Origin: Halobacteriales archaeon YIM A00013
Lineage (GTDB): Archaea; Halobacteriota; Halobacteria; Halobacteriales; Haloarculaceae
Direction: 5' to 3'
Assembly (NCBI GenBank): GCA_025041195.1
Contig: JAKCFM010000003.1
Location: 186,001-250,000, forward strand
Length of the DNA stretch: 64,000 nucleotides
Below, one piece after another: positions 45,984-58,834 of this stretch. The translations under genes were made by a program, and so were the position numbers. Numbering within the stretch: position 1 is the stretch's first letter; each line of letters starts with the position of its first letter. The notes under the pieces were generated by a model. The model made no database searches, was not told where the DNA came from, and saw only the letters and a list, made by a program, of their open reading frames with translations.

Positions 45984-48900
45984 TCACTCCTGGACTGATT
46001 TCACCAATTTGCGCTGCTTGAGATATTCATGGAGTCGCTCATACATGAATGCACAACTCTCTGTCTCCTCGCGATCGTCTGCAACTGTGCTGAGTGTCTC
46101 AAAATCACCGATAATAACCAGTCGCCTCTTTGCACGAGTAAGCGCAACATTTAGCCGGCGTTTGCCTTCTTCGAGAAATTCGAGGAAACCACTTGCATTG
46201 TACGAATTTGAGCGAACGAATGAGACGATAATTGCTTCGCGCTCGCTTCCCTGAAAACTATCAATTGTGTCTATTTTAATACTCCTAGAATTCGTAATTC
46301 TTTCGTTTTTGATTGCATTCTTAATCGTGTTAATTTGCGCAGTGTATGGGGTGATGATACCAATCTCACTGGCCTTCAAATCGTTCATCTGCAGTAGCCG
46401 GACCTGCATGGCGACTAACTCTGCCTCAAACTCATTGAACTTGCTTGAGGAACCTTTATGAGTCTGCTCATGGGAATTCGTATCGAACGCGACTATCGGT
46501 TTTAGATCGGAAACCGTCCAATCACGGTTTTGATCACCATGATTGAGGGTGCCGTGATAGAACTCTTTACTGATGAAGTCTGCTATTTCAGCATTCATCC
46601 GATACTGTCGACGTAATTGTTCGTTTATCACCGACCCATAGCGATTCTGTAATTGCTCGAAAAGAGAGATGTGCATTTGCTCTTCCTTAGCAGTTTCAAT
46701 AGAGCAATATGGAGGCAGTTGTTTATGATCTCCAGCGAGGACGAGTTGTGCACCCTTTAGAGATGGGATGAAACTTGCTGGTTGATTCGCTTGGCTCGCC
46801 TCATCAACAACGACAATATCAAACTTATTATCTGCAAGTTCTGCTGCAGCATTAGTCGTAGCACCGACGACTTGGGCGTTGTTTGGTGGAACACCCTGAT
46901 AATATTGTGTGATGACCTTGTTTTTACTGTTTGTGCCTATTCGTGACATCGTAAACGCCTCTTGCTCCTCTGCTGTGTGATGGAGCGAGCCGCTATCAAC
47001 ATTGTTGAGTGTGCTTGTCCCGGCCATGAGGTTATCTACTGCTTGATTCGAATGTGCCGTAGCGAGGACACGCTTTCCTTGGGCAACTGCTATTTCGATG
47101 AGTGCTGTGAGCGTTCGTGTCTTTCCAGTTCCTGGTGGACCATGGATGCAAAAGATATCTTCCGCACCAAGAGCTCGTTCAATCGCCTGCTGTTGACTTG
47201 AGTTGAGTGTACCCGTATACAGATCAGTGATGTCTGTCTCATACTCTACAAGCTCTTTTTGTCCCGTGACGAGTTGGCGTCGTTCTTGGTTTGAGGCCAA
47301 TCGTTCTATTGCGTCCAACTCACGCTGGTATGGTCGTGAATTTAATAAGTCAACTATATGGTATGTAATGTTTTCATTCGACAGTGCTTGCTTGACTGCC
47401 TCTTGTTTCTCCCTTGCATCGGGCACAATTCCAATTGTCTGGTTATCGATGAATGTGACTATGCCTGATATCGGCAGCAGTCCATGCTGTTGATCTGAGA
47501 ATTCATCATCGACGCTGATGATCACGTGTTGCCCGGGATAGATGTTGAACTTCTCAGCGAGGTCAGATAGATTTTCAGGGTCTGCACCTTCCTTAAGGGG
47601 TAATCTAAACACAATCTGCAAGTCATGGTTGGGATGATACTCGCTGCCGAAGCTTTCGAGGCCCCAAATTAGGTTCGTCTCTTGACTAAGCTGATATATT
47701 GATTCCCTCCTCGTATACTGCTTCCATTTCTTGTCTCGCTCCGTGTCGAGTTCAAGCTGTACGTAAGAAGTAAGCTCATCGAAGTAATCATCTGCGCGTT
47801 CTGCTGGAAGGGGGACAGATGCGTTGTGCTTCGTTTTTTCACGGTCGTGGGAAGCAATAATGGCAGCTGGTCGTGCTAGGTTTAGATTAGTGGAAATGTG
47901 CTGTGAGTCTCCTATACCAAGCTGAGCGAGACAATTGTCGTGCTCCTCAATCGGTCGAATTTGATCACCACATAATTGACAAGTTTGTGATTTGAATAAG
48001 GAATCTATATGCTCTTCAGTGATATGTTTATAGAGGTCATATTGGGATTGATTGTGTGAGTTACAGGATGGGCACGGCCAGTAGCCGCTGTAGATAGACC
48101 AATCTATCTGAATGTCTGTAGTTCGATCGAAGCAAATGTAGTGGGATCTGTAGTCTTTCCCTATCGATTCTCCACAGTTCCCACACTTCTCATCGTTAAG
48201 AAGTATCTCTTGATGTTCATCACGAAGGTGTTTCTGAAGCAGCCTTGAATTGAACGCACTGAATGAACAGAGGAAGCATGATTTGAAAAGGGGATAGATA
48301 AGAGAGGCAGACTTTGGCCCATTGAATTGTTCTATGCACGTAAGATGACTCCGAAGCTCACCGAAGGAGATCTGCTTGTCACATCCAGGACATAGAATTG
48401 TTGCGGAAATATTGTCATTCTGAATATCTGCTCCAAGATGCGTGATCCAAATATGCCACAAGAGTTCCTCTCTGTGTTTGGAACTCATCGAACACTCAGA
48501 GTCTGGGCATTTGTGTTGATTTCTGTTAGTTTCTATTGGTGGGACATTGGATTTGATAAAGCAGTCCATGTGCTGACCGATGGAGTTAAGTGATGGTGCT
48601 GATTTTTCGCACACTGTGCATGCACCCTCTGTGGATAGTATTTCATATTTTTCACTACTATCATGGCTATTAAGATGCCTCTCTAAGGATTTAATTGAAT
48701 CATAATACTTTCCACAGAGTGGACAAAGACCACCAGAGAATTCATAGAGTGAAGCTACAGTACTCTCCGCATAATCGGTAAAACAGGCAAGGTGAGCTGC
48801 AAAACTCTGAGAATCGGATTGTACCGGAAAATCACACCCTGGACAGGATTGTTCATGGATGGATGTCTTTGTTGGGTCGTTTTCGCCCTCGTTTGAACTA

Positions 48901-49010
48901 TTTTTCTCATTTATATTGGAGTGTGGAAAGTGTTCATTTAGTATATGCGAGCATAACTCGTCTTTATTAGGGAACGATTGCTTGCAGGTAAGACAATCAA
49001 GAATTACCAT
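45984..49010 (-). CDS. Multi-zinc-finger SF1 helicase (DNA2/NAM7/UPF1-like)
   Basis: A 1008-residue protein. Residues about 1-375 contain about ten C2H2/C2HC-like fingers, for example CLTCKQSFPNKDELCSHILN followed by H, CPLCGKYYDSIKSLERHLNS followed by H, and CPSCNSHNQSQYDLYKHITE followed by H. Residues about 610-990 are an SF1B helicase: motif I GPPGTGKTRT (about 621), motif II VVVDEAS (about 735), GDHKQLPP, LRRQYRMN, DSFQGSEREAIIVS and ALTRAKRRLVI. Together this suggests a nucleic-acid helicase that recognises its substrate by a finger array. So many fingers are rare in archaea. It may be a defence or genome maintenance gene; that is inference. It is a single-gene unit. Confidence 0.92.
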   Translation of the reverse strand: MVILDCLTCKQSFPNKDELCSHILNEHFPHSNINEKNSSNEGENDPTKTSIHEQSCPGCDFPVQSDSQSFAAHLACFTDYAESTVASLYEFSGGLCPLCGKYYDSIKSLERHLNSHDSSEKYEILSTEGACTVCEKSAPSLNSIGQHMDCFIKSNVPPIETNRNQHKCPDSECSMSSKHREELLWHIWITHLGADIQNDNISATILCPGCDKQISFGELRSHLTCIEQFNGPKSASLIYPLFKSCFLCSFSAFNSRLLQKHLRDEHQEILLNDEKCGNCGESIGKDYRSHYICFDRTTDIQIDWSIYSGYWPCPSCNSHNQSQYDLYKHITEEHIDSLFKSQTCQLCGDQIRPIEEHDNCLAQLGIGDSQHISTNLNLARPAAIIASHDREKTKHNASVPLPAERADDYFDELTSYVQLELDTERDKKWKQYTRRESIYQLSQETNLIWGLESFGSEYHPNHDLQIVFRLPLKEGADPENLSDLAEKFNIYPGQHVIISVDDEFSDQQHGLLPISGIVTFIDNQTIGIVPDAREKQEAVKQALSNENITYHIVDLLNSRPYQRELDAIERLASNQERRQLVTGQKELVEYETDITDLYTGTLNSSQQQAIERALGAEDIFCIHGPPGTGKTRTLTALIEIAVAQGKRVLATAHSNQAVDNLMAGTSTLNNVDSGSLHHTAEEQEAFTMSRIGTNSKNKVITQYYQGVPPNNAQVVGATTNAAAELADNKFDIVVVDEASQANQPASFIPSLKGAQLVLAGDHKQLPPYCSIETAKEEQMHISLFEQLQNRYGSVINEQLRRQYRMNAEIADFISKEFYHGTLNHGDQNRDWTVSDLKPIVAFDTNSHEQTHKGSSSKFNEFEAELVAMQVRLLQMNDLKASEIGIITPYTAQINTIKNAIKNERITNSRSIKIDTIDSFQGSEREAIIVSFVRSNSYNASGFLEFLEEGKRRLNVALTRAKRRLVIIGDFETLSTVADDREETESCAFMYERLHEYLKQRKLVKSVQE

Positions 49011-49418: not shown

Positions 49419-50159
49419 ATGGATCTAACGATGTGTGGGCTGTTTGTTGATCGAGCCGAGGAACTTGCCTGCCTCTATGCTGAGCAAGGAAACTGGAACG
49501 ATGTAAAAGAGGTGTGGTTCTAGAAACGGCTATCGAACCGAAGCACACGAGGGAGTTCCCAGAAAGTCTTTCGGATACTGACTTCGCGATTCAAGAATGC
49601 ACCCGCTGCACTCCCGAACCCTGGTGCTCTTCCCGCAGTGTTTGAACAGTGCAACACATCACGCGGAAAGGCCCAGATACTCTATCTGTATCTCATTCTC
49701 GATGATGCACTCGTTCGATACGTTGTTCACGAGTATGTAGCACGACTAGCTCGAGAAACACCTTCTCCGCTCGATTTTTCGAACGAAACACTTGTAGAGA
49801 TACTCACTAAACTTGAGTATTCAGGTGGAAATAACTTCGATTACGCTGATTCGACAACTGAACGTTGGTGGGAAGGTTTCAGATCTGTAATGCGTGAGGT
49901 TGGTGTGCTCAAAGAGAAAACATCTGTCGTGGGGAGATCACCATCCGTCGGTGATATCCCACTGCTCGTTGCGATGGGATACTCCTATGAGGCAGGCAAT
50001 GATGACTGGATTACGTCTCCGAAAGGCCTTCACTACTTGTTGCAACCGGAGGATCGTTGGGAGGAACTGTACGATAGAGCAGTCAACACGAACGTGTGGG
50101 AAGGAATTGATCTACACACTGGGGTTCAGATACAACCGTGTGACGGGACGTACTCGTGA
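49419..50159 (+). pseudogene. brxA: BREX BrxA (DUF1819) with one nonsense codon
   Basis: The frame starts at 49419 (MDLTMCGLFVDRAEELACLY), reads VKEVWF, then a TAG at 49521-49523, then in the same frame KRLSNRSTRGSSQKVFRILT, KNAPAALPNPGALPAVFEQC and ILYLYLILDDALVRYVVHEY to the end at 50159. This is the DUF1819/BrxA layout, about 246 residues. The only damage visible is the stop, where Glu is expected (GAG or GAA to TAG). Re-initiation at the GTG at 49638 would give 173 residues. BrxB, PglX and PglZ are absent nearby. Confidence 0.8.
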
Positions 50160-50182
50160 ATTGCTGACAGGAAAGGAACGGA

Positions 50183-50906
50183 ATGATTGATACAGATTGG
50201 TTTGATACGCTCCCCGACGACTTCGAAGAATCGGTACGTATCGACCGGGACGAGAAAGCACAGAACGGCAAGCAGCATCGAGAGAAAGCTATCAAGTCGT
50301 ACCACGTAACGGCGGATTCTCAGCGGTTTCTCGAGGACTTTGTGGATCGATTGCTTTCGGAGACGGAGGATATGCGCACTGGATCCAACTACTGGCTCTA
50401 CGGGTACTACGGCAGTGGCAAGAGCCACCTGCTGACAGTCCTCGATGGATTGATGGACACTTCATGGTTCCAGTAACAGTACGACGAGATCTGGGAGGGC
50501 CTCGTGCCCGAGGAGTCGCTCGATAGCGGTCTCAGTGACCGATGGGAGCGAGTGCATTCAACCTACCACGTCATTCCTGTCTCTGTAAATCTCTTGAAAT
50601 ACCAGGGCCAGAAACAACGCAGCTTCAGCGAAATCGTTCTCCGACACGCCCACGGAAATCCAGACCTCACGGGTGTGGATGATACGATCTCCACTGGATT
50701 GTCGTCGCAGCTCGACGTTGTGTACTTCGAGGACTGGTATCGGACGTGGATATCCTGAGATCCTCCAGCAGGTGGACAGCGATGCTGTGCTGGATCATCA
50801 GGATCGACGGGAGTTTCATCGAGTCGTGCACCGGTGGGCTGAATCGAATGATGTACCGTTAGAATGGAATGCCAAGGCACTGAGCAAAGAACTCCGCCGC
50901 CGATGA
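50183..50906 (+). pseudogene. brxC: BREX BrxC fragment
   Basis: Starts MIDTDWFDTLPDDFEESVRI, Walker A YGYYGSGKSHLLTVL (about residue 72), then a TAA after DTSWFQ. The same frame goes on with QYDEIWEGLVPEESLDSGLS and VSVNLLKYQGQKQRSFSEIV, followed by a shift and a final EILQQVDSDAVLDHQDRREF. It is the N-terminal 200 or so residues of BrxC, an ATPase normally above 1000 residues. It has one nonsense codon, one frameshift and a large 3' deletion. It lies in BREX order after BrxA. Confidence 0.8.
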
Positions 50907-50976: not shown

Positions 50977-51642
50977 ATGACAGAGTTAGCAACAGAAGAG
51001 ACCACACTGAATCTCAACTCGTGTATCCGGATTGGGAGTATCATTTCCTCAAATAGCCATCTCGACTATGTAGTCGAGGTTCTCAAGGATCGAGACTGTG
51101 ATCGACCGCCAGAACTCCATGAGCGTGAGTTCGGACAGCCAGTTTTCATCAAAAAAGACGTCAACGGGACGAAACACGCGATCATGGGCGTGATTTATGA
51201 TTCTAAGCTCGTCGATCCTGACCAGGGTCGAACCGGTCCTCGATTAGCTCAAGACGATCAGGAGCGGTTCACTCCCGGATACATCGAGGAACGAACCACA
51301 CTTGTTGGTGTGGCGCTGCTCGGAACAGCAGTCATTACCGACGATCAATCGATTACGGATCCAACCCATCAGATGCCACGGTGGACATTGGAGATCGATG
51401 ATACAGTTTACCACTGTCCGGACGAGATGATTCTCTCATTCCATACCGTCGACGAACAACTCCAGTTGGCCTATCTCGACCGACTCGTTGAGATCGCAGG
51501 TGATCTTGGTGCAGAGATCGCTATGACAGTGATTGATCGACTTCGTCGGCTGCTTGCTGAAGATGATCCAAATCAGCGTGTGCTCAATGTGGTGGAGCAG
51601 AACGTTCAATGGCAGGCACATGAGCAACGGGGAATGATCTGA
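50977..51642 (+). CDS. HerA partner protein
   Basis: A 221-residue protein whose stop overlaps the HerA start by one base (TGATG). The N-terminal half has beta-strand text (CIRIGSIISSNSHLDYVVEV, then FIKKDVNGTKHAIMGVIYDS, then LVGVALLGTAVI) like a HAS-barrel or an OB-type domain. The C-terminal half is helical (QLQLAYLDRLVEIAGDLGAE). No nuclease motif like NurA is visible. It probably helps HerA assemble or binds its partner. It is next to BREX relics. Confidence 0.65.
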   Translation: MTELATEETTLNLNSCIRIGSIISSNSHLDYVVEVLKDRDCDRPPELHEREFGQPVFIKKDVNGTKHAIMGVIYDSKLVDPDQGRTGPRLAQDDQERFTPGYIEERTTLVGVALLGTAVITDDQSITDPTHQMPRWTLEIDDTVYHCPDEMILSFHTVDEQLQLAYLDRLVEIAGDLGAEIAMTVIDRLRRLLAEDDPNQRVLNVVEQNVQWQAHEQRGMI

Positions 51643-53285
51643 TGTCTGGACAACCAACGATCGTCGGAACTGTAGCTGGCCCGGGTGATGACCCGAATGA
51701 ATTCGTTTTTATCACCCCTGCCGAGAAGCCGATCAAAACAGGCGAATTCATCACCTACAGTGTCTCGGTTGATGGTGACGATCGATCTGTCTTCGCTCGA
51801 GTGACGAATCGTGAGTTGATTCGCGGGTTACCGGAGGGATATCTTGCTGATCCTGCGGTGAGTCCGGACACAGTCGCGACAACGCTCGGTGTTCCGACTG
51901 AGGACACCGAACTGTACCGGTTGACAGCGACAGTTATCGGGTATTATAATACCGAGATGACCACCTTCGCGAACCCGCGACAGCTCCCTGCACCGGGGAC
52001 ACCCCTTTCAATTGCGCCTGACCGTCAACTCGAAACCATTCTTCCCAATCTTGGCTGTGAAACGGATAATATGGACGTGACGGAACTGGATGGGGTTGCT
52101 CACATTGGATGGCTATTGAACCGATCACCAAAGGCAACGAACATACATCTCCCAATCGAGGAGTTCGCGTCGACGCACTTGGCGATCCTAGCATCGACTG
52201 GGAGTGGAAAATCGTTCACGGCGTCTGTGCTGGTCGAAGAGATGATGCGGTCCAGTTCACGTGCGTCGCTTCTCGTATTCGATCCACATGGCGAATACAC
52301 CACCCTAGCGGATATGCAGGGTCACGAGATGTTTCAGGGTGAGGATGGATATGAACCGGATGTCGTATACTACGATTCCGAACGACTTCGCGTTCGTATT
52401 TCAGAACTCAATCTCGGCGATGTCATGGCCGTGCTGGACAATCCGAGTAACCGGATGCAAGAGCGTTTGTCGACAGGATGGCGTTCGATGCAGCAACAGG
52501 ATAGTCGGACGTGGGATATCAATGATCTCATCGATAGGATGGAACAATTATACGGAGAAGACGATGCAAGTGTCGGTGCGTTGGAGTGGCGGCTCCGCCG
52601 GTCGATTGGGGAGAACGATCTGTTCCATCCTGAAGACAATGTCCCGTTAGGAGAGATCGTCGGTCCCGGTCAGTGTACAGTACTGCAGATGGATACGTTA
52701 GACCGAAGAAACCAGCAACTCATCACAACGGTTCTCTTGCGACGGCTGTATCGAGAGCGTCTCAATGACGTCCGAGAGCGGGACACTGCAATAGAATATC
52801 CGATCTTTTCGTTGTTCGAAGAGGGACATCGATTCGCACCGGCATCCGGTGACGCTCTGTCACTCGGGATCATGCGGACGATTACGTCTGAGGGGCGTAA
52901 GTTCGGCTTTGGTCTGGGCATTATCAGCCAGCGGCCGTCGAAGATTGATCAGGACGTACTGTCTCAGTGTGGGACACAGATCTCAATGCAGATTCAGAAT
53001 CCGAACGATCAAGACGCAATCGAGAAATCTGTCGAGGCGGCTGGTGAAGATATTTTCCGTGAGTTGCCTGGACTGACACCCGGTCAAGCAATCGTTTCAG
53101 GCGATGCGATGAACACACCAGCGCTAATACAAGTACGTGATCGTCGTACACGACATGGTGCTGAAAGCCTGTCGGTGGTTGAGAAGTGGCACGATGCATA
53201 TGAGCAACAGCAACGAGAGCCGACACACTCAGAAACTGCTGATTTCGGTGGAGGAGAGTCGACTGGCATGCAGAATCTGAACTAG
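51642..53285 (+). CDS. herA: HerA-like hexameric ATPase/translocase
   Basis: A 547-residue protein. N-terminal HAS-like beta domain (IVGTVAGPGDDPNEFVFITP in part), Walker A ILASTGSGKSFTASVL (about residue 186), Walker B-like YPIFSLFEEGHRFAP (about 385) and an arginine-rich region GLGIISQRPSKIDQDVLSQC. These are HerA/FtsK superfamily features. It pumps DNA in repair and in several defence systems. With the partner gene before it, this is a two-gene unit left standing beside broken BREX genes. It could be part of the former BREX island or an unrelated defence system. Confidence 0.88.
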   Translation: MSGQPTIVGTVAGPGDDPNEFVFITPAEKPIKTGEFITYSVSVDGDDRSVFARVTNRELIRGLPEGYLADPAVSPDTVATTLGVPTEDTELYRLTATVIGYYNTEMTTFANPRQLPAPGTPLSIAPDRQLETILPNLGCETDNMDVTELDGVAHIGWLLNRSPKATNIHLPIEEFASTHLAILASTGSGKSFTASVLVEEMMRSSSRASLLVFDPHGEYTTLADMQGHEMFQGEDGYEPDVVYYDSERLRVRISELNLGDVMAVLDNPSNRMQERLSTGWRSMQQQDSRTWDINDLIDRMEQLYGEDDASVGALEWRLRRSIGENDLFHPEDNVPLGEIVGPGQCTVLQMDTLDRRNQQLITTVLLRRLYRERLNDVRERDTAIEYPIFSLFEEGHRFAPASGDALSLGIMRTITSEGRKFGFGLGIISQRPSKIDQDVLSQCGTQISMQIQNPNDQDAIEKSVEAAGEDIFRELPGLTPGQAIVSGDAMNTPALIQVRDRRTRHGAESLSVVEKWHDAYEQQQREPTHSETADFGGGESTGMQNLN

Positions 53286-54144: not shown

Positions 54145-54315
54145 ACTAGAGTGTTCTTGGGGCGACTGGTACGATCGTCCGGTGTGTAGAACCCCATTTG
54201 CGGCAGTATCCGTTCTTTACACCGATAGTGTGGCCCCTACGTCTGCGACTAAGAGCGTTGGATTTAGGAGCCCGTCTCCGAGAGCGGAATCATAGAGTCT
54301 TGGACGAAAGTGAGA
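54145..54315 (+). pseudogene. Decayed copy of the zinc-finger gene at 56.9 kb
   Basis: Aligns base by base with 56980-57135, for example TGGTACGATCGTCCGGTGTG against TGGCACGATTGTCCGGTGTG, and CTTGGACGAAAGTG in both. Stops interrupt every frame. Together with the intact copy it brackets the CARF-PIN/ATPase pair in direct orientation. Confidence 0.85.
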
Positions 54316-54318
54316 GTG

Positions 54319-55314
54319 CTACTGGAGAGAGGTTATCTGGCTTTCCTGATCCGCCATTTCCAGTTTAAACTGAGGAAAGAGATCTAAACCTTCCAGTTCT
54401 ATTTCTAACGCAAACAGCAATACTTGGCGATCTGCCTCTTGGATTACTTGGGCTACTTGTTTTCGAGTTTCCGAGATAACACGGCCGAATATTGTATCAC
54501 CAATCAGTGGCGTGGGAGCAGGCATCATCTCGCCGGCGATTAATGCTGTAATCTGAGTGATTAGGATCTGCTGTCCCATTGGGGCGCTGTGAATTTCTCC
54601 TCCGTATTCGACATCTGCTTTCTTGATGACTAGATTATCCTGTTTTTTATCAATTCTGTACCGACTGTCCACGGTGGTTAGCAGGTCGTTGATCCGGCGG
54701 AGCATTTCATCACCTAGGTCATTGTCATTTGAGTAGTATTCAGGCAATTCGATGTTTCGAGCGGCTGCTTGTTGGGTTGCGGCGTCTCTGAGGTCTTCTA
54801 CGATTTCACTCCAGCTAGTTCCCCCCCAGATGTCCTTGATGCCAAGAGAAGATTCGGGATCTAGGTTGGAGAAAGTGAAAGCTGGGGTGGGGAAGACCGT
54901 GTTAACCGCCTCAGTGCATCCTACGTCGACCCATTCACCATCATTCTTTTCCTGTGCTTGGAGGGGATCAACGTAGTTAACCGGCCCTCGCCTAGTTTCG
55001 AGGGTATAGAACTTACGAGAGAAACGAAATCGTTGGTCAAGCTCACTGTCAAAGATTGTTGTTATGACTTTTCCAGTAACTTCTTCTCCAGGGGAGAGCT
55101 CGTCGATTAAATCGTAGGTGACAAGCGGGGAGTCGACTTCGAACTCTCCAGTGAGACAAAGATGAATTGAATTGGCTAGCGTGGTCTTCCCAGTATCATT
55201 CTGTCCAGTAATGATGTCGATCCCTGAGTTTTCGATTTGGCTCAGATCTAGCCGATGCTCTCCACGAAAGGAGTAAAAATTTTCCACTTCAAGGGATTCA
55301 ATCCGGATAACCAC
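54319..55314 (-). CDS. RecF/SMC-like AAA ATPase next to the CARF-PIN gene
   Basis: A 331-residue ATPase. It starts RIESLEVENFYSFRGEHRLD, a RecF/Rad50-style first strand, with Walker A IITGQNDTGKTTLA (about residue 34). A helical mid-part leads to an ABC-like signature region HSAPMGQQILITQITALIAG and LIGDTIFGRVI, where an Asp stands for Walker B. The catalytic Glu seems replaced by Thr. No nuclease domain is found. The gene is 71 bp downstream of the CARF-PIN gene on the same strand, so the two form a unit; presumably it senses or moves DNA for that nuclease. Confidence 0.8.
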   Translation of the reverse strand: MVIRIESLEVENFYSFRGEHRLDLSQIENSGIDIITGQNDTGKTTLANSIHLCLTGEFEVDSPLVTYDLIDELSPGEEVTGKVITTIFDSELDQRFRFSRKFYTLETRRGPVNYVDPLQAQEKNDGEWVDVGCTEAVNTVFPTPAFTFSNLDPESSLGIKDIWGGTSWSEIVEDLRDAATQQAAARNIELPEYYSNDNDLGDEMLRRINDLLTTVDSRYRIDKKQDNLVIKKADVEYGGEIHSAPMGQQILITQITALIAGEMMPAPTPLIGDTIFGRVISETRKQVAQVIQEADRQVLLFALEIELEGLDLFPQFKLEMADQESQITSLQ

Positions 55315-55385
55315 TATCGTAAGAGTTGAGTTGAGATGTTATCAAGCTTTCTAGGGCATGCTATATCCACAATGAAAATCCCTAT

Positions 55386-56903
55386 TTATTTCGCAATTTG
55401 GCTGAGCAAGTTCTGGTATCTACTGAGTTGTTTTGCCACGACTGGACTTCGACATCTGACGGCGAGTGTGTCCGTCTCCCATTCATTCGGTTTTTTTCTT
55501 GGCCAGACACCCCAAACGTCTAGTTTAGGTAACTCCAGTATCCCAAACTGGATGGCATGGAGGTAGAGGGTGGTTGCGGCATCTTCCCAGGAGACGGTTT
55601 CCCTGCGTGGAACGCTTTGAGGTAGGTCCACGAGTATCGAAGGTACACCACGGTCTCGTCCTGATGAGATGAAACCGGAATCATTGCTGAAGAGTATGAG
55701 GTCGAAATCGCTGTCTTCGCAGGCAGCTGTGATTGCGTTGTCTCCGATCTCGGATCGGATCTTCTCTGTATAGAGTTCTCGTTGAAGTCGGGTGAAGTAC
55801 TGCCTTCCCAGCTGAAGCTGACGTGGCGTTCCTTTCGGCTGGTTGAAGAGCTCTTCGAACTCCTGACCGAATGCCTCTTTTAAGTCTCTGGTGTTGTTGA
55901 TTTTCTCGTTGCCATCGTAGTTCATCAATTCGTCTCGGACTCCGGTGACAACGCCATATCCGTTCAGTCCTCCATCCAGCTCGGGTGCTACTCCGAGTTG
56001 TCGTGCAGGCCAGTACTGGATCAGGTTAGTGTCGAAGACTGCGAGTGCTGCGGAGTTTCTGTGTTGCAAACGTCGGTTTCGATATGGCTCGATTTGTTCA
56101 GATATTTGGTCCTGATTATCAAACTTGAGGACACGAGAGGTAAACGCTCCGATAAAAGAGCGGAAACTAGGGATTTCGGATAGGGCTTGTTTGCCATGGC
56201 GCCTTTCCACTTCTGAGAGTTCTTCTTTATACTGATTGGAGCCATTAGTGAATCGAATAGATGCTGGTTTGCCATGATCCAATTCGATTTTGTAGAGTGT
56301 CGAAATGATGTTGGATTTGTGATTGACAGAGAGGGTGTGGCTCCCAGTGCTGTACAGTGCGTTAAAGAGGAGTGGCAGTTGTTTCCGGGTTATCTTGTAG
56401 ACATCGTCAGTGAGGCCGTGATCTCCTGGACTGGTGAGATTTAGGTCGGAATTCTTTTTGTAGTCAATTAGGCTCATTTCTGGCCTTGGAATCATTGGAT
56501 AGATGGTTGATTCGAGATTGACTTGGTTGGAACCTTCTAAGGTGTATAAGTGGTTGAAGTTGTTGCTGGCTCCGATAAGGCAGGCGTTGAGCAGGCGTGA
56601 TCCGCTGGAAATACTGACAGTTTTCGTACCATCGCTTTCTTTCAGGGTCTCTAGTATGTGTTGTGAGACCTGCTTAGGTTTATGGATAGCTGGTGTGGTT
56701 GAGAAGTTAATCTCTGCATCTATGTTGTATTCGCGGCATACGTTCTTGAGAAGCTGTCGGGTGTCCTGAAGCGTTTCTTTGTCACTCTCGGGTACAAAGA
56801 TGAGGATATTGTCGGGATCATAATTGCTTTCAATAGATGCTATGAGCGAGTTCAGGAGGGGTATGGGTCGGCTATCGGTTACGCCGATCCAAATATCAGC
56901 CAT
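55386..56903 (-). CDS. Putative CARF-PIN nuclease
   Basis: A 505-residue protein starting at the ATG at 56901-56903 (MADIWIGVTDSRPIPLLNSL). The first 125 residues are a Rossmann-like alternation ending SISSGSRLLNACLIG, like the ligand-binding strand and helix of CARF domains in CRISPR-linked proteins. The C-terminal 240 residues fit a PIN nuclease: AVFDTNLIQYWP (first Asp), then ELM(N/E) acidic stretch, GDNAITAACEDSDFDLILFS followed by ND (second and third acidic sites). This suggests a CARF-PIN nuclease activated by a cyclic nucleotide. CARF is inferred from pattern only. No type III cas genes are visible; the orphan CRISPR is 38 kb away. Confidence 0.65.
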   Translation of the reverse strand: MADIWIGVTDSRPIPLLNSLIASIESNYDPDNILIFVPESDKETLQDTRQLLKNVCREYNIDAEINFSTTPAIHKPKQVSQHILETLKESDGTKTVSISSGSRLLNACLIGASNNFNHLYTLEGSNQVNLESTIYPMIPRPEMSLIDYKKNSDLNLTSPGDHGLTDDVYKITRKQLPLLFNALYSTGSHTLSVNHKSNIISTLYKIELDHGKPASIRFTNGSNQYKEELSEVERRHGKQALSEIPSFRSFIGAFTSRVLKFDNQDQISEQIEPYRNRRLQHRNSAALAVFDTNLIQYWPARQLGVAPELDGGLNGYGVVTGVRDELMNYDGNEKINNTRDLKEAFGQEFEELFNQPKGTPRQLQLGRQYFTRLQRELYTEKIRSEIGDNAITAACEDSDFDLILFSNDSGFISSGRDRGVPSILVDLPQSVPRRETVSWEDAATTLYLHAIQFGILELPKLDVWGVWPRKKPNEWETDTLAVRCRSPVVAKQLSRYQNLLSQIAK

Positions 56904-56904
56904 T

Positions 56905-57174
56905 ATGATGTGTGTTGTGGCCAACCCAAATATAATTGATCGTATTGGTCAACAAATTCATCACCATCCACGGGACGATTGGCACGATTGTCCGGTGTGT
57001 GGAACTCCACTTGCAGCAGTATTGAAACTTCACACCGATGGTGATTGTCACCGATGTCTGCGACTAGGACAAGCGTTGGATTTGAGTGCCAGTCCACGAG
57101 AGCGGAACCAAAGGAGCCTTGGACGAAAGTGTAAGTTTGGACCGTACTTTTCGTTTAAGTGGTTCTGGCGATAA
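56905..57174 (+). CDS. Small zinc-finger protein
   Basis: An 89-residue protein with DDWHDCPVCGTPLAAVL then GDCHRCLRLGQALD, two CxxC pairs 18 residues apart (zinc ribbon), and a basic end (RKCKFGPYFSFKWFWR). Start options are ATG 56905, ATG 56908 or GTG 56917. The first lies only 1 bp from the divergent CARF-PIN start, so a later start is possible. A dead copy lies at 54145-54315. It may regulate the divergent CARF-PIN gene. Confidence 0.65.
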   Translation: MMCVVANPNIIDRIGQQIHHHPRDDWHDCPVCGTPLAAVLKLHTDGDCHRCLRLGQALDLSASPRERNQRSLGRKCKFGPYFSFKWFWR

Positions 57175-57237: not shown

Positions 57238-57759
57238 TTAGCTAGGTTCTCTACAGTCATCAAGTCGCTTGAGGACTTCCTCTCTATTCACCTCTGTGCC
57301 GGCGTATGGATTCGTGACGGCCTCAAATGGTTCTGATCCATCGAAGGTAGCCGCCCGTACAACAGCATGATCAAGTCGAACAAAGGATTCGGCTAGCTTA
57401 TCCGCTGCTTTTTCTGCTGGCATCCATTCGTACGCGTCGTGTTCTTCATTCAAAGAAATCTCTCGCTCTTCAGTCTCACACCGGTATACGAGCGTCACCA
57501 TTGGTTCCCCTGTTGTTTCATCCACCCAGCCTCCGTACATTGCTTCAACGAGTGGACCAACTCGGCTTTCGATTGATAACTCTTCACGGAGTTCGCGACG
57601 AAGACCACCAACTAGTGTTTCCCCGAATTCGAACGTTCCTCCTGGTGGTTCCCAGTGATCACCGCATTTTGTGAGTAATACCTGTTCGTCCGGCCCAAAT
57701 AGAATTGCTTTCTGTGTGATCTTACCAACGAAGTGGTTGGATTGTTGTGTTCTCGTCAC
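57238..57759 (-). CDS. Nudix hydrolase
   Basis: A protein of about 173 residues from the GTG at 57757-57759 (VTRTQQSNHFVGKI); an ATG at 57805-57807 or 57856-57858 would make it longer. The Nudix box is GGTFEFGETLVGGLRRELRE followed by EL (about residues 42-63), which fits Gx5Ex7REUxEE, with Ser instead of the usual Gly just after it. The substrate is probably a nucleoside diphosphate derivative. It runs convergently with the zinc-finger gene at 56905. Adjacent Nudix genes are common in haloarchaea and no operon is seen. Confidence 0.85.
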   Translation of the reverse strand: MTRTQQSNHFVGKITQKAILFGPDEQVLLTKCGDHWEPPGGTFEFGETLVGGLRRELREELSIESRVGPLVEAMYGGWVDETTGEPMVTLVYRCETEEREISLNEEHDAYEWMPAEKAADKLAESFVRLDHAVVRAATFDGSEPFEAVTNPYAGTEVNREEVLKRLDDCREPS

Positions 57760-57949
57760 GATGTTAGTATAGAAATGGAGTTGGAATATCAATGATGGAC
57801 TAGTCATCTGAGGTCTGGGTACCCGTCTCCGAAGCCATCCAGTGGCTTCACTTTTCACGACGATATCCTATTATTCTATTTACTCCTTTGAAGATTGGAT
57901 AGAAGTCAAATATAAGTTTCTTTATCAATACACCAGATTATAAGCACTG

Positions 57950-58834
57950 ATGAGGGTGTACAATTTACCAGATGGGCCACGTCTACTATCACTACCCGGT
58001 GACAAGCAGTTCTCTCTCGATTTTGTAAATCTAGATCCTGACGAAATTGTTTCACAAATCGTTGACTATGGTGACGATATCGCGGTAAAGGTCCAAGCGT
58101 ACGATATCGATGAAGAATTTTATGTTATCTATAGGTCTCGCGTTAGCGAGAAATCGGTACGCGATATCGACTTCGATCTGAAAGAATTGCTCACGGAGAT
58201 GAGTGATAATAATGGCGTTATCGTAGTTCGTCTTCTGGAAATCTATCGCGCACTCATTGCTCAGAATGAGAAAGAAAAAGGAGTTCCCGTCGAGGCGTAC
58301 AAGAGTATCGATCTCAATGCTCTTCCAGATATCCTCAATCGAACGTCGTGGGACGGATCAGCAACAGACGTTGCAGGTCGACTTGCTTCGAACTTGATTC
58401 TGAAACATCCGCTTCCGAACACCAATCATCGAACTGCTGTCGCATTGGTTCAGTTTTACCTCCGACGGCTGAACACTGACTTCGCCATGCCGGAAACGTC
58501 CATAAAAGTTGATCCGGAGACATATGACTGGCAAGAGTGGGTAAATGAGTATATCAACGAGTCGAAACGATTCCTTACTATTCGTCGGAATAACGTGCTC
58601 TTCAAACACCTGTACAGTTTGGGTGCGAGAACGCTTGAGCGAAAACACGGCATCGAAATTGACTTGACTGTATACGAGCTGGATATGTACCCAAGTGAGG
58701 CGAAAATTGTCTACGCGGAGAAGCACGAAGAGCTCTGGATCGAGTTTGTAGAGCAAGCCGTTGAACGTGCAGGCTATTTGTGGCTACAAGAGACTCCGGG
58801 ACTATCAAAAGATGAGTTTGCCAGAAAAATATAG
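57950..58834 (+). CDS. Fic/Doc-like protein
   Basis: A 294-residue protein. The block ILKHPLPNTNHRTAVALVQF (about residues 151-170) is the Fic/Doc active-site loop, H-P-x-P-x-x-N-x-R-T-A, in which His is the base. The Gly usually found in the loop is Thr. The N-terminal 100 residues are a beta domain and a helical region, then a C-terminal helical part with a TRP-rich end. Fic/Doc proteins transfer AMP or phosphate to targets, often as toxins. A possible partner is the short minus-strand gene at 58853, but no true antitoxin is recognised. Confidence 0.7.
   Translation: MRVYNLPDGPRLLSLPGDKQFSLDFVNLDPDEIVSQIVDYGDDIAVKVQAYDIDEEFYVIYRSRVSEKSVRDIDFDLKELLTEMSDNNGVIVVRLLEIYRALIAQNEKEKGVPVEAYKSIDLNALPDILNRTSWDGSATDVAGRLASNLILKHPLPNTNHRTAVALVQFYLRRLNTDFAMPETSIKVDPETYDWQEWVNEYINESKRFLTIRRNNVLFKHLYSLGARTLERKHGIEIDLTVYELDMYPSEAKIVYAEKHEELWIEFVEQAVERAGYLWLQETPGLSKDEFARKI

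Follow-up and report, generated by a model that had tools for sequence, protein, structure and literature searches.

CARF-PIN and ATPase genes at 54319-56903

The window analysed here is a 64-kb stretch of the genome of Halobacteriales archaeon YIM A00013. Its span 54319-56903 consists of exactly two genes, both on the minus strand and 71 bases apart, which encode a fused CARF-PIN protein and a small RecF/SMC-like ATPase. An earlier sequence-only reading had proposed such a pair, and its two open reading frames (ORFs) were found at the positions it gave. An ATG at 56903 yields a CARF-PIN protein of 505 residues, with an in-frame TTG 7 codons upstream as an alternative start (512-residue reading). 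The features of the two genes are as follows.

55386-56903, minus strand: CARF-PIN fusion gene, 505 residues (PADLOC PDLC01973, CARF_m1--CARF_PIN; fold match to SiRe_0806 with cyclic tetra-adenylate (cA4), 9jxx)
56454-56903, minus strand: CARF domain, residues 1-150 (matches to Cam1, Can2, Card1, Csa3 and Sso2081; split homologues stop here)
56583-56618, minus strand: altered CARF signature VSISSGSRLLNA at residues 96-107, where the family commonly has [VI]D[VI]TPGRKxMSA
56064-56405, minus strand: middle domain, residues 167-280 (conserved along with the PIN half; matches no family by itself)
55629-56054, minus strand: PIN nuclease domain, residues 284-425 (four acids invariant in 43 loci)
56031-56033, 55929-55931, 55740-55742 and 55680-55682, minus strand: codons of the PIN acids D291, E325, D388 and D408, respectively, read from the sequence
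54319-55314, minus strand: RecF/SMC/DndD-like ATPase, 331 residues, GTG start, no long coiled coil (AAA_23, 7e-11; PbeC/DndD models)
55183-55206, minus strand: ATPase Walker A, GQNDTGKT, from sequence comparison
54478-54510, minus strand: ATPase Walker B/D-loop, PLIGDTIFGRV, with Thr at the position of the catalytic Glu, from sequence comparison

The CARF-PIN protein is matched nearly end to end by PADLOC model PDLC01973 (E = 6.2e-26; residues 11-490 of the 512-residue reading to positions 3-454 of the 465 in the model), and a second PADLOC model, CARF_PIN, matches with E = 2e-17; Pfam and NCBIfam gave weak Csa3-type CARF matches alone. These are the CARF and PIN profile searches for which the sequence-only reading had called; they assign the N-terminal domain to CARF and not to an unrelated Rossmann family. 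The loci that hold the homologues are defence islands rather than metabolic loci. The block that had been singled out as CARF-like, SISSGSRLLNACLIG, occupies residues 97-111, the position of the ligand-loop motif in CARF domains, and the acids that had been called PIN-like are genuine PIN sites: D291, E325, D388 and D408 occur, along with an SND motif, in 43 of 43 loci without exception. The literature already mentions two CARF families that contain a PIN domain (PMC4012209).

An AlphaFold2 model of the protein, built from 28 window and locus sequences after leaving out an alignment in which free CARF rows were misplaced, reached a mean predicted local distance difference test score (pLDDT) of 81, the middle and PIN domains lying mostly above 85. 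Its closest folds in the PDB are those of SiRe_0806 with and without cA4, matched over the whole length (E down to 8e-14); the matches that follow are mostly CARF proteins, including Can2, Cam1, Card1, Csa3 and the ring nuclease Sso2081. A sequence search of the PDB returned no relative of CARF-PIN, the fold search alone providing one. Judged by profile, fold and conserved acids, the protein belongs to the CARF_m1 family and is probably a PIN ribonuclease under ligand control.

An altered sensor loop in the fused branch

In 51 haloarchaeal and methanogen sequences, type III-linked or not, the CARF loop reads [VI]D[VI]TPGRK, with D and T conserved in 50, G and K in all 51 and R in 49. The window protein departs from this DxT[PS]GRK loop of its CARF_m1 relatives, a regularity found in the present analysis and not a published criterion of membership: in four of four fused-branch sequences, the motif is replaced by VSISSGSR (SxSSGSR). 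The block by which the CARF domain had been recognized is, therefore, exactly where the fused branch leaves its family. Because the catalytic half is unaltered, a switch of signal seems a likelier reading of the new loop than decay.

The fused gene and the ATPase travel together

Intact fused CARF-PIN genes occur in three loci, those of the window, G282 and G296 (73% identity), whose genomes belong to three families. In all three, the ATPase gene (~58% identity) follows 71-89 bases downstream on the same strand, whereas the remaining neighbours, for the most part defence genes, differ from locus to locus. The ratio of non-synonymous to synonymous substitution rates (dN/dS) between G282 and G296 is 0.17 for CARF, 0.07 for the rest of CARF-PIN, about 0.10 for CARF-PIN overall and 0.13 for the ATPase; both genes are under purifying selection. 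The sequence-only reading had treated the two genes as one unit and, since order, strand and spacing recur in two other families and dN/dS is low, this pairing is more than chance. In G123, the CARF-PIN gene is truncated near residue 233 and no ATPase is present.

The ATPase combines AAA_23 and RecF-SMC features with matches to the PbeC and DndD models, whose coiled coil it lacks; these models fit its N-terminal ATP-binding cassette (ABC) half well and its C-terminal end weakly. As had been noted from the sequence, Walker A is present and a clear catalytic Glu is not: all four close homologues carry a Walker B-like PLIGD[TS]xFGRV, in which Thr or Ser replaces the catalytic Glu of ABC ATPases. 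The ABC signature ahead of Walker B is degenerate, reading SAPMGQ in the window ATPase and LSAGGQ in two relatives. A structure model of the ATPase (pLDDT 45) was discarded.

The ATPase could instead be a mere defence-island neighbour, the apparent unit being a hitch-hiking island segment in which CARF-PIN works alone. The split CARF and PIN pairs described below manage without it, as none of those examined has the ATPase adjoining, and in G175 an ATPase of 62% identity stands beside HerA-like and Rad50-like genes with no adjoining CARF-PIN. Order, strand and a spacing of 71-89 bases are nevertheless kept in three families while most other neighbours differ, and we regard simple neighbourhood as very improbable.

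A haloarchaeal family of mostly split genes

CARF-PIN homologues are present in 52 of 392 Halobacteriales genomes (about 13%). Their usual form is a pair of genes, CARF of ~157 and PIN of ~347 residues, typically with a 1-base overlap (TGATG); in three split loci, CARF and PIN share one frame and are separated by a stop codon alone. Some CARF halves are annotated by NCBI as 'CRISPR-associated ring nuclease', an annotation at odds with the NCBIfam Crn1 model, whose score here falls far under its cut-off. Scans of genome-contig and viral-contig collections with CARF-PIN or the ATPase gave no matches, and no phage records were found.

The split pairs occupy variable defence islands with BREX, DrmE, Piwi, UvrD/GajB-like helicases or MoxR/VWA genes, and no constant third partner was found among the islands examined. 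In several haloarchaeal plasmids and genomes (L032, L033, L048 and L051-L053), a MoxR-VWA-HEAT-ADP-ribosylglycohydrolase set lies upstream of CARF and PIN. A fixed association with these genes was considered and rejected: it covers ~10 loci, mostly near relatives, and fails for the family and for the window locus. Around position 9400 of L063 and L073, PIN precedes what is apparently the CARF gene, a member of the same cluster, instead of following it.

Relation to type III CRISPR and other signal sources

A CARF domain is usually taken to indicate type III CRISPR signalling. In three methanogens (G619, G532 and G615), the CARF and PIN genes belong to an operon that also contains Cas6 and Cas10, and come directly after its Csm3-type gene. 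A quick tree built on the PIN half, with long branches flagged and an unsure root, unites them with the haloarchaeal genes in a single branch (SH-aLRT 100), inside which the haloarchaeal genes group together (97). Because some methanogen pairs sit within a type III operon, the haloarchaeal clade looks like a former type III effector, and the simplest reading is that it has spread without type III.

No cas genes lie in the 64-kb window, and the neighbours of CARF-PIN are not cas genes. The sequence-only reading had stated that type III genes are missing here; this holds for the window and fails for the genome, of which another contig, C1, carries the following operon.

L076 7219-14359 (G000, contig C1): complete type III-A operon with CARF-HEPN effector

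The operon encodes a Csx1/Csm6-like CARF-HEPN protein, Cas10/Csm1 (E = 2.8e-94) with its GGDD motif, and Csm2, Csm3, Csm4 and Csm5. CARF-PIN could thus be a type III effector of the usual kind that works in trans, whereby cyclic oligoadenylate made by the III-A Cas10 binds CARF and activates the PIN ribonuclease, with the ATPase as a side partner. The presence of this operon, the relatives within methanogen type III operons and the solution of the nearest fold with cA4 all speak for such a role. The distribution of the family speaks against it. Three of the 392 Halobacteriales genomes, each from this genus, had a match to the Cas10 palm domain, and the source genome alone combined it with CARF-PIN. 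One of the 52 carriers, again the source genome, was matched by a further Cas10 model, and likewise by the RAMP family. The other 51 haloarchaeal carriers, including G282 and G296 (both 99% complete), have no Cas10 or RAMP match. Outside the order, 42 genomes of a phylum sample carry the family, 13 of them with Cas10. Co-occurrence of CARF-PIN with Cas10 reaches significance neither within the order (Fisher P = 0.35) nor beyond it (P about 0.16-0.24, with the number of genomes estimated at ~239). Moreover, the CARF signature is altered in the fused branch alone, and the III-A operon, on its separate contig, already has a CARF-HEPN effector of its own. Taken together, a role in trans appears unlikely.

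Other cyclases were considered as a general source of signal and rejected. SMODS matches occur in 13 of the 52 carriers, eight of them over the cut-off, and mCpol in none (0 of 52). No SMODS match was found in the source genome, so that the CD-NTase, in genome or locus, that would define a cyclic-oligonucleotide-based anti-phage signalling system (CBASS) was not detected.

With no cyclase of the tested kinds (Cas10, SMODS and mCpol) tracking the family, CARF might instead sense broken host or viral RNA, for example tRNA halves with a 2',3'-cyclic phosphate, and the PIN domain would then amplify RNA cutting. The model for this idea is RtcR, whose CARF domain operates without type III and binds tRNA fragments ending in a 2',3'-cyclic phosphate (PMC7790460). 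No sequence feature examined points to RNA-end binding, leaving the analogy alone, and we consider this explanation improbable.

Proposed mechanism

We judge the chances evenly balanced that the two genes form a defence module in which a CARF-PIN ribonuclease is gated by a signal and the ATPase acts as its partner. Within such a module, the most likely arrangement would be a stand-alone dormancy or abortive-infection device, whose PIN ribonuclease answers a changed signal or the ATPase; an abortive-infection role is plausible. More tentatively, CARF may have left type III altogether, the CARF domain of this branch reading a different signal, made or relayed by the dedicated mini-ABC ATPase, in place of cyclic oligoadenylate.

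The family would have started out within type III CRISPR as an effector of cyclic oligoadenylate, the situation in methanogens, before spreading through haloarchaea no longer dependent on type III. In the branch of the window, CARF and PIN would have fused, the DxTPGRK signature would have been lost and the mini-ABC ATPase would have joined as partner. AriA- and PtuA-type ATPases are thought to sense infection through DNA ends or a virus protein, and the ATPase here would most likely do the same; directly or via the changed ligand, it would release the PIN domain, for which CARF is the gate. The released PIN domain would cut RNA, leading to dormancy or growth arrest.

Several observations weigh against a signal-gated module of this kind. 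The source genome has a complete III-A operon with a GGDD Cas10, and cyclic oligoadenylate from this source might still act as the trigger. In the AlphaFold2 model, confidence is low for the second half of CARF. The ATPase may hydrolyse ATP poorly, because it has no catalytic Glu and, in the window copy, no normal ABC signature; its clade is small, with four genomes, and its copy in G175 stands apart from any CARF-PIN gene.

Flanking features and other genes of the window

Three further features border the module.

56927-56936, minus strand: TATA-like box, 24-33 bases upstream of the CARF-PIN ATG, read from the sequence
54159-54317, plus strand: left copy of an imperfect direct repeat (~80%) around the module
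56972-57136, plus strand: right copy of the repeat (~80%), within a small zinc-finger-like ORF (56824-57174)

The TATA-like box, of which a similar one precedes homologues L058 and L059, is at a spacing that fits a leaderless transcript. The imperfect direct repeats on either side of the CARF-PIN and ATPase genes are perhaps a trace of the module's insertion.

Upstream in window coordinates, 45984-49010 encodes a protein of 1008 residues with several C2H2-type zinc fingers and an Upf1-like superfamily 1 helicase (best PADLOC match MkoA, 4.5e-90); such a zinc-finger array looks odd for an archaeon. At 49638-50476 are the remains of BREX, namely BrxA (173 residues) and the first 97 residues of BrxC (PADLOC 8e-76 and 7e-46, respectively), and the locus looks truncated because no more than these parts remain. 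They are followed at 50977-53285 by a gene of 221 residues without assigned function and a HerA-type helicase (DUF87, 6e-33), perhaps a separate HerA defence pair. On the other side of the module, a weak DOC/Fic-like protein (57950-58834; TIGR01550, E = 0.016) with an HPLPNTNHR motif lies beside a Nudix hydrolase (57238-57858).

Comparison with known systems

The sequence-only reading had found the pair unlike known systems. CARF-PIN itself is a catalogued family and, in some methanogens, an ordinary member of a type III operon; what is unusual is the branch, with its fusion, ATPase and altered motif. With the other CARF_m1 CARF-PIN proteins (PDLC01973), including the haloarchaeal split pair, the window protein shares the domain order, the PIN acids and a full-length profile match, whereas it differs from the split pair in being fused, in having SxSSGSR for DxTPGRK and in the ATPase gene that follows. 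The methanogen type III pairs belong to the same two-gene family, in operons with Cas10, Cas6 and Csm3-type genes, but their PIN half is only 22-25% identical, they have no ATPase and their family CARF motif is intact. SiRe_0806 of Sulfolobus islandicus (PDB 9jxw; 9jxx with cA4) is the best whole-length fold match (E = 8e-14); its identity to the window protein is 12%, however, its domains are packed differently (17 Å root mean squared deviation), and the bound cA4 is that of SiRe_0806.

A RecF/SMC-like ATPase beside a nuclease effector is likewise found in PARIS (AriA/AriB; PMC12409363) and in Septu and retron PtuA/PtuB. The conserved adjacency expected of such an ATPase and nuclease pair is seen here in three genomes of three families, and the PtuA model matches the window ATPase weakly; by contrast, the effectors of those systems are Toprim or HNH proteins without CARF, and the effectors show no sequence kinship. 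Compared with DndD and PbeC, the ATPase is short (331 against about 650 residues), has no long coiled coil and has no dnd or pbe partner genes beside it in the window; the DndD model TIGR03185 scores 37 bits against a cut-off of 246. RtcR also has a CARF domain outside type III, but it is an AAA+ transcription activator and has no nuclease.

Almost all of the haloarchaeal CARF-PIN clade thus does without Cas10; in one of its branches, the sensor loop has been rebuilt and an ATPase acquired. If the haloarchaeal CARF-PIN proteins are active, they must respond to a signal not yet known. Measured against the systems above, the locus is moderately novel, its effector family being known and its arrangement, with the fusion, the ATPase and the altered motif, being new.
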